Shown: piece after piece, positions 1,896 to 26,137 of the stretch | Layout of the letters: the number at the start of each line of letters is the position of its first letter | Numbering within the stretch: the first letter of the stretch is position 1 | DNA from: a virus | Virus record (IMG/VR): IMGVR_UViG_3300031857_000692 | Span: 1 to 34,423 of that record | Strand: one strand, 5' to 3' | DNA: 34,423 bases | Notes under the pieces: model-generated | Database searches by the model: none | The model's input: only the letters and a program-made list of their open reading frames with translations | What the model was told of the DNA's origin: nothing | Program-made: the position numbers and the translations under genes

Positions 1896-1924
1896 TCCGA
1901 TTCCCAAAGCCAAGGCCGTAGAAT
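1895..1924 (+). promoter_or_regulatory. Early-type element plus -10-like hexamer before HNH gene
   Basis: ATCCGATTCCCAAA at 1895-1908 is a copy of an element that recurs upstream of early genes (29907, 32214, 33051 on +; 23404, 23709, 23744 on -). TAGAAT at 1919-1924 looks like a -10 hexamer. It lies in the 88-base gap before the HNH gene and just upstream of a hairpin. Promoter activity is inferred. Confidence 0.45.
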
Positions 1925-1928
1925 GATT

Positions 1929-1957
1929 GAGGCAGCGGTGCGCTAACACCCTGCCCC
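1929..1957 (+). promoter_or_regulatory. HNH-leader hairpin, copy 1
   Basis: A 29-base stem-loop: outer arm GAGGCAG, unpaired C, inner arm GGTG, loop CGCTAA, inner arm CACC, outer arm CTGCCCC. One outer pair is A-C; the other ten pair. It starts four bases after TAGAAT and 26 bases before the ATG at 1984. Total length, bulge position and loop size are identical to the hairpins before the other two HNH genes (3271-3299 and 26099-26127). There is no U-run, so it is not a terminator. It is probably a 5'-end RNA structure. Confidence 0.55.
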
Positions 1958-1983
1958 TTGACCAACTCACTTCCGATGAGCTG

Positions 1984-2481
1984 ATGACAGCAATGGTAGA
2001 CCGCACCGGCCAGCGTTACGGCCGATTGGTGGCGCTAGAGCCAGTCCGCACAGAGAAGTATCTGTACTGGCGGTGCATCTGTGACTGCGGCACTGAAAAG
2101 CTGATCAACACTAGAAGCCTGGGGCGGCATACTCACAGCTGTGGGTGCCTCCGCAGGGAAGTCACCGGCAACCGCGCTCGGTCGCATGGGCGCAGCCAAG
2201 ACCCCATGTACAAGATCTGGGCGTGCATGAAGGATCGATGCTCCCGACCGGACCACAAGGACGCAGAGTATTACTACAGCAAGGGCATCAGGGTCTGTGA
2301 GCGGTGGCGCAACAGTTTCGAGTCCTTTGCTGAAGACATGGGCGATCGGCCGCCAGGCCTGACCATTGACCGGATTGACTCCAACGGGGACTACGAACCG
2401 GGGAACTGCAGATGGGCCACGGTCAAAGAGCAAAACAACAACAGGGGGCCGAGGCGCTGGGCAAAGCGGCCGGCAAGCTAA
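1984..2481 (+). CDS. HNH/AP2-type homing endonuclease
   Basis: This 165-residue protein begins near the typical family start (VDRTGQRYGRLVALEPV), has a CICDCG...SCGC zinc-ribbon-like segment, then the diagnostic PMYKIWACMKDRC, GIRVCERW, and GLTIDRIDSNGDYEPGNCRW blocks found in phage HNH/AP2 homing endonucleases. Such proteins nick DNA and spread their own genes between phages. An in-frame ATG at 1993 is an alternative start; upstream in-frame codons to 1927 (TTG) would run through the leader hairpin and are not favoured. It is inserted between the sigma-like gene and the major tail protein gene. Confidence 0.8.
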   Translation: MTAMVDRTGQRYGRLVALEPVRTEKYLYWRCICDCGTEKLINTRSLGRHTHSCGCLRREVTGNRARSHGRSQDPMYKIWACMKDRCSRPDHKDAEYYYSKGIRVCERWRNSFESFAEDMGDRPPGLTIDRIDSNGDYEPGNCRWATVKEQNNNRGPRRWAKRPAS

Positions 2482-2499: not shown

Positions 2500-3258
2500 A
2501 TGCCCAGTTATTTCAACGCGCTAGATTTTCAGCTTTATGTAGGGCTGGGAACTACGGCATCAACGGCCCCAACTTCTACGTCTGGGCTGACCGAGGTTCT
2601 GTCACTGACCAACGCCAGTATTGATGGCAGCACGGATTCTACTGATGCTCCGCTGGATTATTCCTCGGAGTATGGGTGGAAGTCGCCGTTGATGACCAAC
2701 ATCGGCTGGTCAGTCCCCGCCAGCATGAATCTGTCTCTGGCTGATGAGGGCTATCGCATCCTTAAGCGGGCATGGCTGAATGGCGCTGCTGGTACGGCTT
2801 TAAAGGTCTACCGTGTATCTCCTGTAAAAGATGGCTCCGGCAGCGACGCTGAGATCCACAGCGGCATTGCATTTGTCGAAGGATTTCAAGAAAGTGTGCA
2901 AGCAGGCGATGTCGCTACTTGCTCCTTCACATTCCGCGGTTTTGGCCAGCTTCTGTGGTATCCGCAGGGCAAGGGAATTGCAACCCTGACTGTAACCACC
3001 AACGGCAGCGGCCTGTCTCCTGCCACCTACAGCGGCGTGTCGCTGATTGGCAGCAGCCCTGCGCAGGGCGTGGGCAGCGGCCTGGGAGCCACCGCGGATA
3101 TTGTGGTTGCCGGTGGCGGCACGGTCACTGCAGCGCCGACGATCGTGGCAGCGGGCACCAACTACAACGTGGGCGACATCCTCACGGTGGGCGCGGGCAC
3201 TGTGGGCGACGCTGGTGCTGACGTCAGGCCTACGTTCACGGTCAGCACGGTCAGCTGA
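2500..3258 (+). CDS. Major tail (tube) protein with C-terminal decoration domain
   Basis: The first 155 residues of this 252-residue protein read like a siphovirus tail tube subunit: an N-terminal LTEVLSLTNASIDGSTDSTD strand pair, YGWKSPLMTNIGWSVPASM, and a final strand with SCSFT-like TCSFTFRGFGQLLWYP. Residues of about 165-250 form a separate Gly-rich domain with YSGVSLIGSSPAQGVGSGLG and GTNYNVGDILTVGAG, a repeat domain common in surface-exposed cyanophage structural proteins. It probably decorates the tail surface. GGCAAGCT lies exactly 20 bases before this ATG, the late-junction arrangement seen elsewhere in the window. Confidence 0.75.
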   Translation: MPSYFNALDFQLYVGLGTTASTAPTSTSGLTEVLSLTNASIDGSTDSTDAPLDYSSEYGWKSPLMTNIGWSVPASMNLSLADEGYRILKRAWLNGAAGTALKVYRVSPVKDGSGSDAEIHSGIAFVEGFQESVQAGDVATCSFTFRGFGQLLWYPQGKGIATLTVTTNGSGLSPATYSGVSLIGSSPAQGVGSGLGATADIVVAGGGTVTAAPTIVAAGTNYNVGDILTVGAGTVGDAGADVRPTFTVSTVS

Positions 3259-3261
3259 CGC

Positions 3262-3299
3262 TAAGATGGTGGGGTAGCGAGGGTGCAACCTCCTACCCC
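3262..3299 (+). promoter_or_regulatory. HNH-leader hairpin, copy 2, with -10-like TAAGAT
   Basis: TAAGAT (3262-3267) is followed after GGT by a 29-base stem-loop at 3271-3299: outer arm GGGGTAG, unpaired C, inner arm GAGG, loop GTGCAA, inner arm CCTC, outer arm CTACCCC. All eleven pairs are Watson-Crick. It ends 24 bases before the ATG of the HNH gene at 3324. No U-run follows. It has the same architecture as copies at 1929 and 26099, with compensatory base changes between copies. Confidence 0.65.
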
Positions 3300-3323
3300 T
3301 GGCCACCTGCTGTCACAGGCGAC

Positions 3324-4034
3324 ATGGACATCATCTCACGCGAGGAAGCCCGCGCACGCGGGCTGAAACTCTTCTATACCGGCAAGCCCTGCGCTCGTGG
3401 TCACGACTGCGAGCGCTACGTTGCTGTTGGTCGGTGCGTCATTTGCAACAGCATCAACGGCAAGAAGTATCACGAAAAGAACCGGGCTGCTATCTGTGCC
3501 CAACAGAAGCAGTATCGAGAGCAGAACGCCGAGCTTGTCAAAGAGCGCAAACGACAAGACTACGAAAAGCATTGGCACAAGCGCCGGGCCACCGCCCGAG
3601 CTTGGTACGAAGCCAATAGGGACAAGATGCTTGAATACCTGCGTGAATGGCAGACTGCCAATGCCGATCACTGCAGGCAGCAGAAAACGGCTTACTACCT
3701 GACGCGGAAGCAATCAGATCCTCAGTTCGCCGTTTTGACCCGGCTGCGCCGGCGGATCAATCACTTTGTGTCTGGCGATAACAAAAGCGGCAAGACGGCT
3801 GAGTTGATTGGATGCTCCTATGAGGCTTTCGCAAGGCACATTGAAAGCCAGTTCACGGGTGGCATGTCATGGGACAACCGATCCGAGTGGCACATCGACC
3901 ACATCATCCCCTGCGCGGCGTTTGACCTCAGCGATCCTGAGCAGCAGCGGCAGTGCTTTCACTACAGCAACATGAGGCCGCTCTGGGCCCATGAGAACCG
4001 CCGCAAGGGGGCATCAATGCCCGAAGCTGCCTGA
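3324..4034 (+). CDS. HNH endonuclease with N-terminal zinc-ribbon-like domain
   Basis: The C-terminal domain of this 236-residue protein carries the HNH core: WHIDHIIPCAAFDLSDPEQQ with H180/D182/H183, then N206 in HYSNMRPLW and N215 in HEN. The N-terminus (GLKLFYTGKPCARGHDCERY, then CVIC) has Cys/His spacing suited to zinc. The middle is long, helical and very basic. The product at 25202-26074 is a clear paralogue (shared RHIESQF, MSW, WHIDHI, FDL-DPEQQRQCFHYSN). Its base composition is visibly AT-richer than its neighbours. It has its own leader hairpin and its own terminator, so it looks like a self-contained mobile cassette dropped between the major tail gene and the inverted connector pair. 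Confidence 0.85.
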   Translation: MDIISREEARARGLKLFYTGKPCARGHDCERYVAVGRCVICNSINGKKYHEKNRAAICAQQKQYREQNAELVKERKRQDYEKHWHKRRATARAWYEANRDKMLEYLREWQTANADHCRQQKTAYYLTRKQSDPQFAVLTRLRRRINHFVSGDNKSGKTAELIGCSYEAFARHIESQFTGGMSWDNRSEWHIDHIIPCAAFDLSDPEQQRQCFHYSNMRPLWAHENRRKGASMPEAA

Positions 4035-4063
4035 GCTGAGCAAACTAGGGAGCAGTGATAGGG

Positions 4064-25201: not shown

Positions 25202-26074
25202 CTACAGCGGCTGCCAGTTCAGAGCCGCGCCCTTTGAGCAGTTTTGCGAGGCCCACAGAGGCTGCAGGTTGCTGTAGTGAAAGCACTGACGCTGCTGCTC
25301 GGGATCCGTAAGGTCAAAGCTGGCGCAGGGCCGGATATGGTCGATGTGCCAGCCGGTGCTCCCCCATGTCTCCCATGACATCCCTGGCTGAAATTGGCTC
25401 TCAATGTGCGCCCTCACTTCCGCAATTGAGCAGCCGATAAGCGCCAGGGTTGATTCGGATTTGTAGCCATGCTTGATGGCCTCTTTCACGCGATGGCGCA
25501 ATGCGCAAACGAGCCTAAAATTTAGGTCGTTTTCCCTGCGCGACTGAATGTATTGGCGCTTGTATTCAGTCACCTTTTCTTTGTTGGCCGCCAGCCACGA
25601 CTGATAGTAATCGCGGTGCTTTTCCGCATAACCCGCCGTCGCTCGGCGCCTAGCTTCTTTTGCGTTCTGCCTTTTGCGGTACTCTGGGTCAGTTCTTCTA
25701 CGGGCTTTGACGCGTTCGTTCAGGTTGGCCCTGCGCCGATAACCCGCGTCTTGGCATCTTCCTGAACAATACACGCGCTCTTTAAAAGAATCGCCAATAC
25801 GGCAGAACTTGGCACCCTGTGTCCCTTTGGAGATTCCATCCAAGACAACTTCCGCGGAGCAAACGTGGCACCTCAAGACAAAGCCAATTCTTGCTGTGCG
25901 CACTGGCACAGGCTTGAGTTGCGATTTCCTTTCTAGCTGCCATGCCCGCTTGCATGGAACGCATTGCCTTGTGGTGACGTATCTAACGTCAATGTGCCCA
26001 TTGCGGCACGGGACACCGGTAAAGAAAAAGCGCAGCCCCTGTCGCTGGGCTTCCGCGCGTGCAATGATCTCCAT
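25202..26074 (-). CDS. HNH endonuclease, paralogue of 3324-4034
   Basis: The N-terminal zinc-ribbon-like part (GLRFFFTGVPCRNGHIDVRY, then CVPCK) and C-terminal HNH (WHIDHIRPCASFDLTDPEQQ, then HYSNLQPLW) of this 290-residue protein match the protein at 3324. Compared with it, about 55 extra residues (around 60-115) add a further Cys-rich segment (CHVCSAEVVLDG, then VYCSGRCQDAGY). It follows the RusA gene and has its own leader hairpin. The DNA is AT-richer than its surroundings, consistent with recent arrival. Confidence 0.85.
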   Translation of the reverse strand: MEIIARAEAQRQGLRFFFTGVPCRNGHIDVRYVTTRQCVPCKRAWQLERKSQLKPVPVRTARIGFVLRCHVCSAEVVLDGISKGTQGAKFCRIGDSFKERVYCSGRCQDAGYRRRANLNERVKARRRTDPEYRKRQNAKEARRRATAGYAEKHRDYYQSWLAANKEKVTEYKRQYIQSRRENDLNFRLVCALRHRVKEAIKHGYKSESTLALIGCSIAEVRAHIESQFQPGMSWETWGSTGWHIDHIRPCASFDLTDPEQQRQCFHYSNLQPLWASQNCSKGAALNWQPL

Positions 26075-26098
26075 GGCTTCAGGTTGCTCTGAGGTCCG

Positions 26099-26137
26099 GG
26101 CGTAGGGGGCTGCAACCCCGCTACGCCACCTATTCTA
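26099..26137 (-). promoter_or_regulatory. HNH-leader hairpin, copy 3, with -10-like TAGAAT
   Basis: On the minus strand TAGAAT (26137-26132), AGGT, then a 29-base stem-loop (26127-26099): outer arm GGCGTAG, unpaired C, inner arm GGGG, loop TTGCAG, inner arm CCCC, outer arm CTACGCC; 24 bases to ATG 26074. The hexamer overlaps the RusA stop codon. Relative to the copy at 3271 two pairs are changed on both sides (G-C to C-G, A-T to G-C). Confidence 0.65.

Follow-up and report, generated by a model that had tools for sequence, protein, structure and literature searches.

Each of the three HNH nuclease genes in the window (the whole stretch of DNA analysed, 34,423 nucleotides of virus record IMGVR_UViG_3300031857_000692) is preceded by a real, structured RNA leader that is borne on a cassette. 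This leader is probably a portable element, subject in its symE-like form to control by a cis-antisense RNA, that has been captured by homing-nuclease cassettes. The features concerned, lettered A to C by gene and with the two hairpins of each leader designated H1 and H2, are as follows.

1896 to 2479, plus strand: inserted cassette C, with direct repeat GGCAAGCT on both flanks, ending at the HNH stop
1919 to 1924, plus strand: leader C −10-like box, TAGAAT
1929 to 1957, plus strand: leader C H1, GAGGCAG C GGTG(CGCTAA)CACC CTGCCCC (clade-2 profile, E 9e-6; clade-1 model, E 1.4e-3)
1966 to 1980, plus strand: putative leader C H2, CTCA(CTTCCGA)TGAG (pairing by inspection)
1984 to 2481, plus strand: HNH gene C, of another HNH family (phrog_374)
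3259 to 4036, plus strand: inserted cassette A (−10 box, leader and HNH gene), from empty versus occupied sites
3262 to 3267, plus strand: cassette A −10-like box, TAAGAT, 3 nt 5′ of H1
3271 to 3299, plus strand: leader A H1, GGGGTAG C GAGG(GTGCAA)CCTC CTACCCC (window-free model, E 1e-20; covariation)
3306 to 3319, plus strand: leader A H2, CCTG(CTGTCA)CAGG, 4 nt 5′ of the ATG (covarying helix 2)
3324 to 4034, plus strand: HNH gene A, endonuclease-VII-like (phrog_1035), with an N-terminal phrog_1081 domain
25202 to 26074, minus strand: HNH gene B, endonuclease-VII-like
26079 to 26092, minus strand: leader B H2, TCAG(AGCAAC)CTGA (covariation analysis)
26099 to 26127, minus strand: leader B H1, GGCGTAG C GGGG(TTGCAG)CCCC CTACGCC (window-free model, E 1e-14)
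26132 to 26137, minus strand: leader B −10-like box, TAGAAT, overlapping the end of a RusA-like gene

The common order is a −10 box, 3–4 nt, H1 (29 nt), a linker of about 6–8 nt, H2, about 4 nt and the ATG, with H2 across leaders consisting of 4 bp and a loop of 6–7 nt. The sequences and coordinates given for the hairpins and −10 boxes in a preliminary description match the window sequence, and the paired exchanges listed there (3-27, 10-21, 5-25 and 11-20) are present; H1 of copy C has one A·C mismatch, at pair 2. The spacer of 24 bases claimed between H1 and the ATG holds for A and B but not for C, in which it is 26 nt (ATG at 1984), and the leader had been described as a single hairpin, which is correct for H1 but overlooked the second small hairpin beside each ATG. 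H2 of leader C is absent from the predicted minimum-energy fold. No Shine–Dalgarno sequence was found in the H2 loops of the window copies, so that ribosome access may be governed differently in these copies, and H1 in the window leaders sits 5′ of the ribosome-binding region rather than sequestering it. A terminator was rejected for lack of a U-run, as had already been stated for the window hairpins.

Perfect hairpins of this 7/1/4/6 geometry arise 1 to 4 times per shuffled window and are thus common by chance, so the three window copies alone prove little. Viral contigs encoding homologues of HNH genes A and B supplied relatives with the same leader, and a clade-1 alignment of 14 leaders, window copies included, was made on sequence alone. 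In this alignment 95.7% of cells are paired, both-side changes occur in 11 of 15 pairs, compared with 0–3 when the partner is slid, and the covariation score is 0.39 versus at most 0.10 for slid partners; H2 also covaries, with double changes at all 4 of its 4 pairs. A clade-1 covariance model trained on 12 relatives, and containing no window sequence, recovered A (E 1e-20), B (1e-14) and C (1.4e-3), the sole further window match below E 1 being the opposite strand of copy B. Among 46 bacterial leaders, the covariation score is 0.60 versus at most 0.11 for slid partners, in an alignment fitted to the model. The earlier argument for selection on RNA structure is therefore supported by both the clade-1 and the bacterial leaders. 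No matches came from an exact 22-mer pattern search or from a BLASTN comparison of the cassette with annotated phages, and at gathering score no Rfam family matched the window or the HNH leaders.

The −10 boxes of clade 1 are real as a class. A box of at least 3 bits at a gap of 2–5 nt is found in 16 of 17 distinct clade-1 leaders, all of which came from protein homology or from the window, whereas control upstream positions carry such a box in 0–10%. A further 51 TATAAT-selected loci were left out of this evidence because the search pattern itself demanded the box. Judged from sequence, transcription from the box would begin at the foot of H1; a search of 3150–3500 revealed neither a promoter pair nor a terminator. 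Overlap of H1 with the expected start site, together with the conserved H1 loops of the phage sets and the repression by I-TevI of its own promoter (PMC2988022), could be taken to mean that H1 is a protein-binding site for the nuclease as autorepressor or for a host factor, either as an RNA hairpin or as a DNA inverted repeat over the promoter. This is considered improbable, given that the same H1 precedes unrelated proteins, that its stems vary freely with pairing kept and that its loops differ between bacterial copies.

Evidence that the leader moves with the nuclease comes from sites that are empty in relatives. The A site is empty in L341–L343 and L345–L351 and occupied in the window and L344. 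Empty sites in the tail-protein relatives read ...GTGAGC TGAGCAAACTAGG, whereas the occupied site in the window reads ...GTCAGC TGA CGC TAAGAT(leader, HNH A)CCTGAGC TGAGCAAACTAGG, from which it follows that the insertion starts 3 nt before the −10 box and stops at the HNH stop codon, its exact end being ambiguous by the repeat AGCTGA. Cassette A sits between a tail-gene stop and the downstream terminator of that gene. At the C site, the empty relatives (L342, L343, L345 and L346) read GGCGGCAAGCTAAGCC, whereas the occupied site consists of GGCGGCAAGCTGA, 23 nt, the −10 box, the leader, HNH C and CCGGCAAGCTAAGCC, so that this insertion starts about 23 nt before the −10 box. Presence/absence polymorphism at a single site, as expected of a homing cassette, is thus found at both A and C. 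These insertion ends make the leader the 5′ end of a mobile cassette, which bears out the proposal of a cassette signature in the sense of a leader belonging to the mobile unit, and because A and C carry different HNH families, one leader type fronts different nucleases.

A second group of leaders, clade 2, was found with a DNA pattern from copy C and its relatives and then with a clade-2 model. Its features are the loop GTG CGCTAA CAC, the linker CTAAYCA and a Shine–Dalgarno sequence inside the H2 loop, and its members precede HNH, HNH_3, HNH_5, endonuclease VII and GIY-YIG proteins. When bacterial genomes were searched with the model, 12 of the 248 in the family to which the Pseudomonas abietaniphila genome belongs gave a match, as did 16 of the 248 in the order that includes the Yersinia pekkanenii genome; the genomes that first yielded the pattern are included in these figures. 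Most bacterial matches precede mobile-element genes, namely Icd-like small proteins, P4-type primases and SymE; SymE lies downstream in 3 of 42 other leaders, and the downstream genes in the window are HNH nucleases. The hairpin had been described as shared by HNH genes, which is true of the window but too narrow, since GIY-YIG, symE, primase and satellite genes also carry it, and the specificity for HNH genes on which that description was to be checked was not borne out, bacterial matches lying mostly away from such genes. The two leader types are bridged by copy C: a clade-2 sequence profile made without C finds C alone in the window (E 9e-6), whereas A and B are recovered by the clade-1 model only. 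The clades are joined mainly through copy C and the common architecture. The PS-1 type leader was found at full length in one annotated phage only.

That this leader also fronts P4-type primase and Icd-like genes raises the question of whether H1 is the target of a trans-encoded immunity RNA of the C4/CI type of P1 and P4 phages. The phage P1 C4 target leader likewise precedes a mobile-element operon and has two antisense target sites, but it has another sequence and a trans-acting C4 RNA, and the clade-2 model matches neither P4 nor the first 50 kb of P1, a stretch that covers the c4 region. Nor are 8-mers complementary to the loop in excess within 1.5 kb (11 versus 8.1, S.D. 3.2). With neither a model match in P1 or P4 nor a local complementary RNA, this explanation was rejected as highly improbable.

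A nearer likeness is to the symE/SymR type I toxin–antitoxin system (RF01809, PF08845), which has the same order of H1, linker, H2 and ATG. The Rfam SymR model (RF01809) matches the opposite strand of clade-2 leaders over its full length, reaching 61.1 bits in the Pseudomonas leader L263 (cut-off 61). Five leaders of homing nucleases score 48, 45.4, 44.6, 37.8 and 34.3 bits (E values from 5e-6 to 9e-3); these scores lie below the Rfam cut-off and so denote resemblance, not membership. Conversely, the clade-2 model, although built without symE, recovers the Escherichia coli symE leader (44 bits). An opposite-strand −10 box lies 12–13 nt from the start codon, the same place as in symE, in 44 of 60 clade-2 leaders and 22 of 29 nuclease leaders, compared with 2 of 374 control ORFs; the position was picked after seeing the data, and the other positions from 4 to 30 all give at most 8%. 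The location of this box inside the gene explains why unrelated proteins start with MTDAS, MADAI, MANAD and the like. The symE gene of E. coli itself contains the symR promoter, and when the −10 box of that promoter is mutated, SymR is lost and SymE rises more than sevenfold (PMC1891008). In one Pseudomonas genome, leaders L274 and L275 have identical stems and different apical loops, as would be expected of antisense specificity, and L263 is similar. By analogy, the wider family is probably a symE-type leader silenced by an opposite-strand small RNA. The leaders described here differ from symE/SymR in that they front homing nucleases, in that the nuclease copies have a sense −10 box fused to H1, and in that the window copies lack a detectable antisense promoter.

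Under such antisense control, the portable 5′ leader would consist of H1 as its first half, the linker, and H2 next to the start codon; it would have a −10 box of its own for transcription and would occupy the 5′ end of a mobile homing-nuclease cassette. A short antisense RNA from the embedded box would pair with H1 and H2, beginning at the H1 loop, and would block ribosome access, holding nuclease levels down until antisense transcripts are outnumbered by sense ones. The window copies may be under the same control from a different antisense start or may still use the folded leader alone. A more speculative extension, regarded as rather unlikely, is that the loop serves as a compatibility tag, with the antisense RNA of a resident cassette silencing incoming cassettes of the same loop and the front end being shared by unrelated nucleases, toxins and satellite genes.

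At the window copies themselves, an antisense RNA is no more than suggested. SymR has no match at E 10 in window-type (clade-1) leaders, including those of L002 with A and C, and a −10 box at the symR position is absent from A, B and C, the best antisense candidates in A and B being weak; antisense control of these copies is for this reason something we infer. The third bases of codons 2–5 are constrained in clade-1 genes, and 17 of 21 have A as the last base of codon 5, versus 29% elsewhere, across Thr, Ser and Ala, although the genes are related and a coding motif could cause part of the signal. The constraint would fit an extended −10 box (TGN-RATGAT) closer to the ATG. The proposal that the hairpin times or represses nuclease translation gains indirect support through the wider symE-type family, in which the strand opposite the leader is similar to SymR and has a promoter box embedded in it.

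The same lack of a SymR match in clade 1, and a −10 box that puts the start at the H1 foot, would also suit a leader with no antisense RNA, in which a 5′-terminal stem-loop shields the mRNA and acts together with H2 either to set the rate of translation or to insulate the gene from read-through transcripts. RNA hairpins are used by T4 I-TevI, segB and Aeh1 mobE, seg43 of Aeromonas phage 25 has a stable hairpin just 5′ of an unsequestered ribosome-binding site (PMC2988022), and leaders L310 and L330 carry a T4-late-like TATAAATA before H1. This is a substantial possibility, held to be short of an even chance, but it leaves unexplained the antisense −10 box of clade 2, the conserved apical loops and the constrained third bases of codons 2–5 in clade 1. 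The T4-type leaders (I-TevI, segB, Aeh1 mobE and seg43) also combine a structured leader with an endonuclease-specific promoter; their hairpins mostly sequester the ribosome-binding site and are not described as one family, whereas here one RNA family is common to unrelated nucleases and travels with them.

Rfam 15 holds the antisense strand (SymR) and no family for phage nuclease leaders. Among the papers listed in a literature search, no title or abstract linked SymR/symE to homing nucleases or dealt with this structured leader of phage HNH/homing-nuclease genes. The leader is best regarded as related to that of symE and, as far as searched, as new at the front end of homing nucleases. A single toxin–antitoxin leader would thereby become a widespread regulatory module on selfish genes, and the question of how free-standing phage nucleases stay quiet in lysogens and between coinfecting phages would gain a testable answer. 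Two other antisense-related families gave weak matches, below the Rfam cut-off, in leaders L263 and L268: PtaRNA1 (RF01811) on the SymR-side strand and R1162 (RF00043) on the sense strand, both of which belong to other genes.

Several minor observations were made among the leaders. T4-late-like TATAAATA or variants lie directly 5′ of H1 not only in L310 and L330 but also in L305, L323 and L324, as though the nuclease-associated cassette bore a promoter of the class used by its phage. The −10 box overlaps or adjoins the upstream stop codon in the window (26132–26137), L154 and L169, so some cassettes may supply that stop. H1-type hairpins with a CGGCAA loop precede genes without a nuclease match in L306/L327, L308/L314, L318 and L338. 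In one relative, Salmonella phage SEN34 (L249, 2999–3040), the same GTGCGCTAACAC hairpin precedes a U-run and a 46-amino acid ORF, an arrangement suggestive of a terminator or a decayed cassette. Repeated operator motifs resembling GGTGTTCA/TGTGTTTC lie upstream of satellite leaders, by divergent genes, in L276, L277, L280 and L284. A second leader type on nuclease cassettes resembles int-alpA RNA (RF02996), which has a similar −10 box and structured leader before HNH genes (PS-1 gp42, L011 and L048) but differs from the window leaders in H1 fold and loop; it replaces H1 on HNH genes in PS-1 gp42 (L250, 640–768), L011, L048 and L053, and in PS-1 gp42 it is preceded by TATAAT and accompanied by an H2-like hairpin with a Shine–Dalgarno sequence in its loop.
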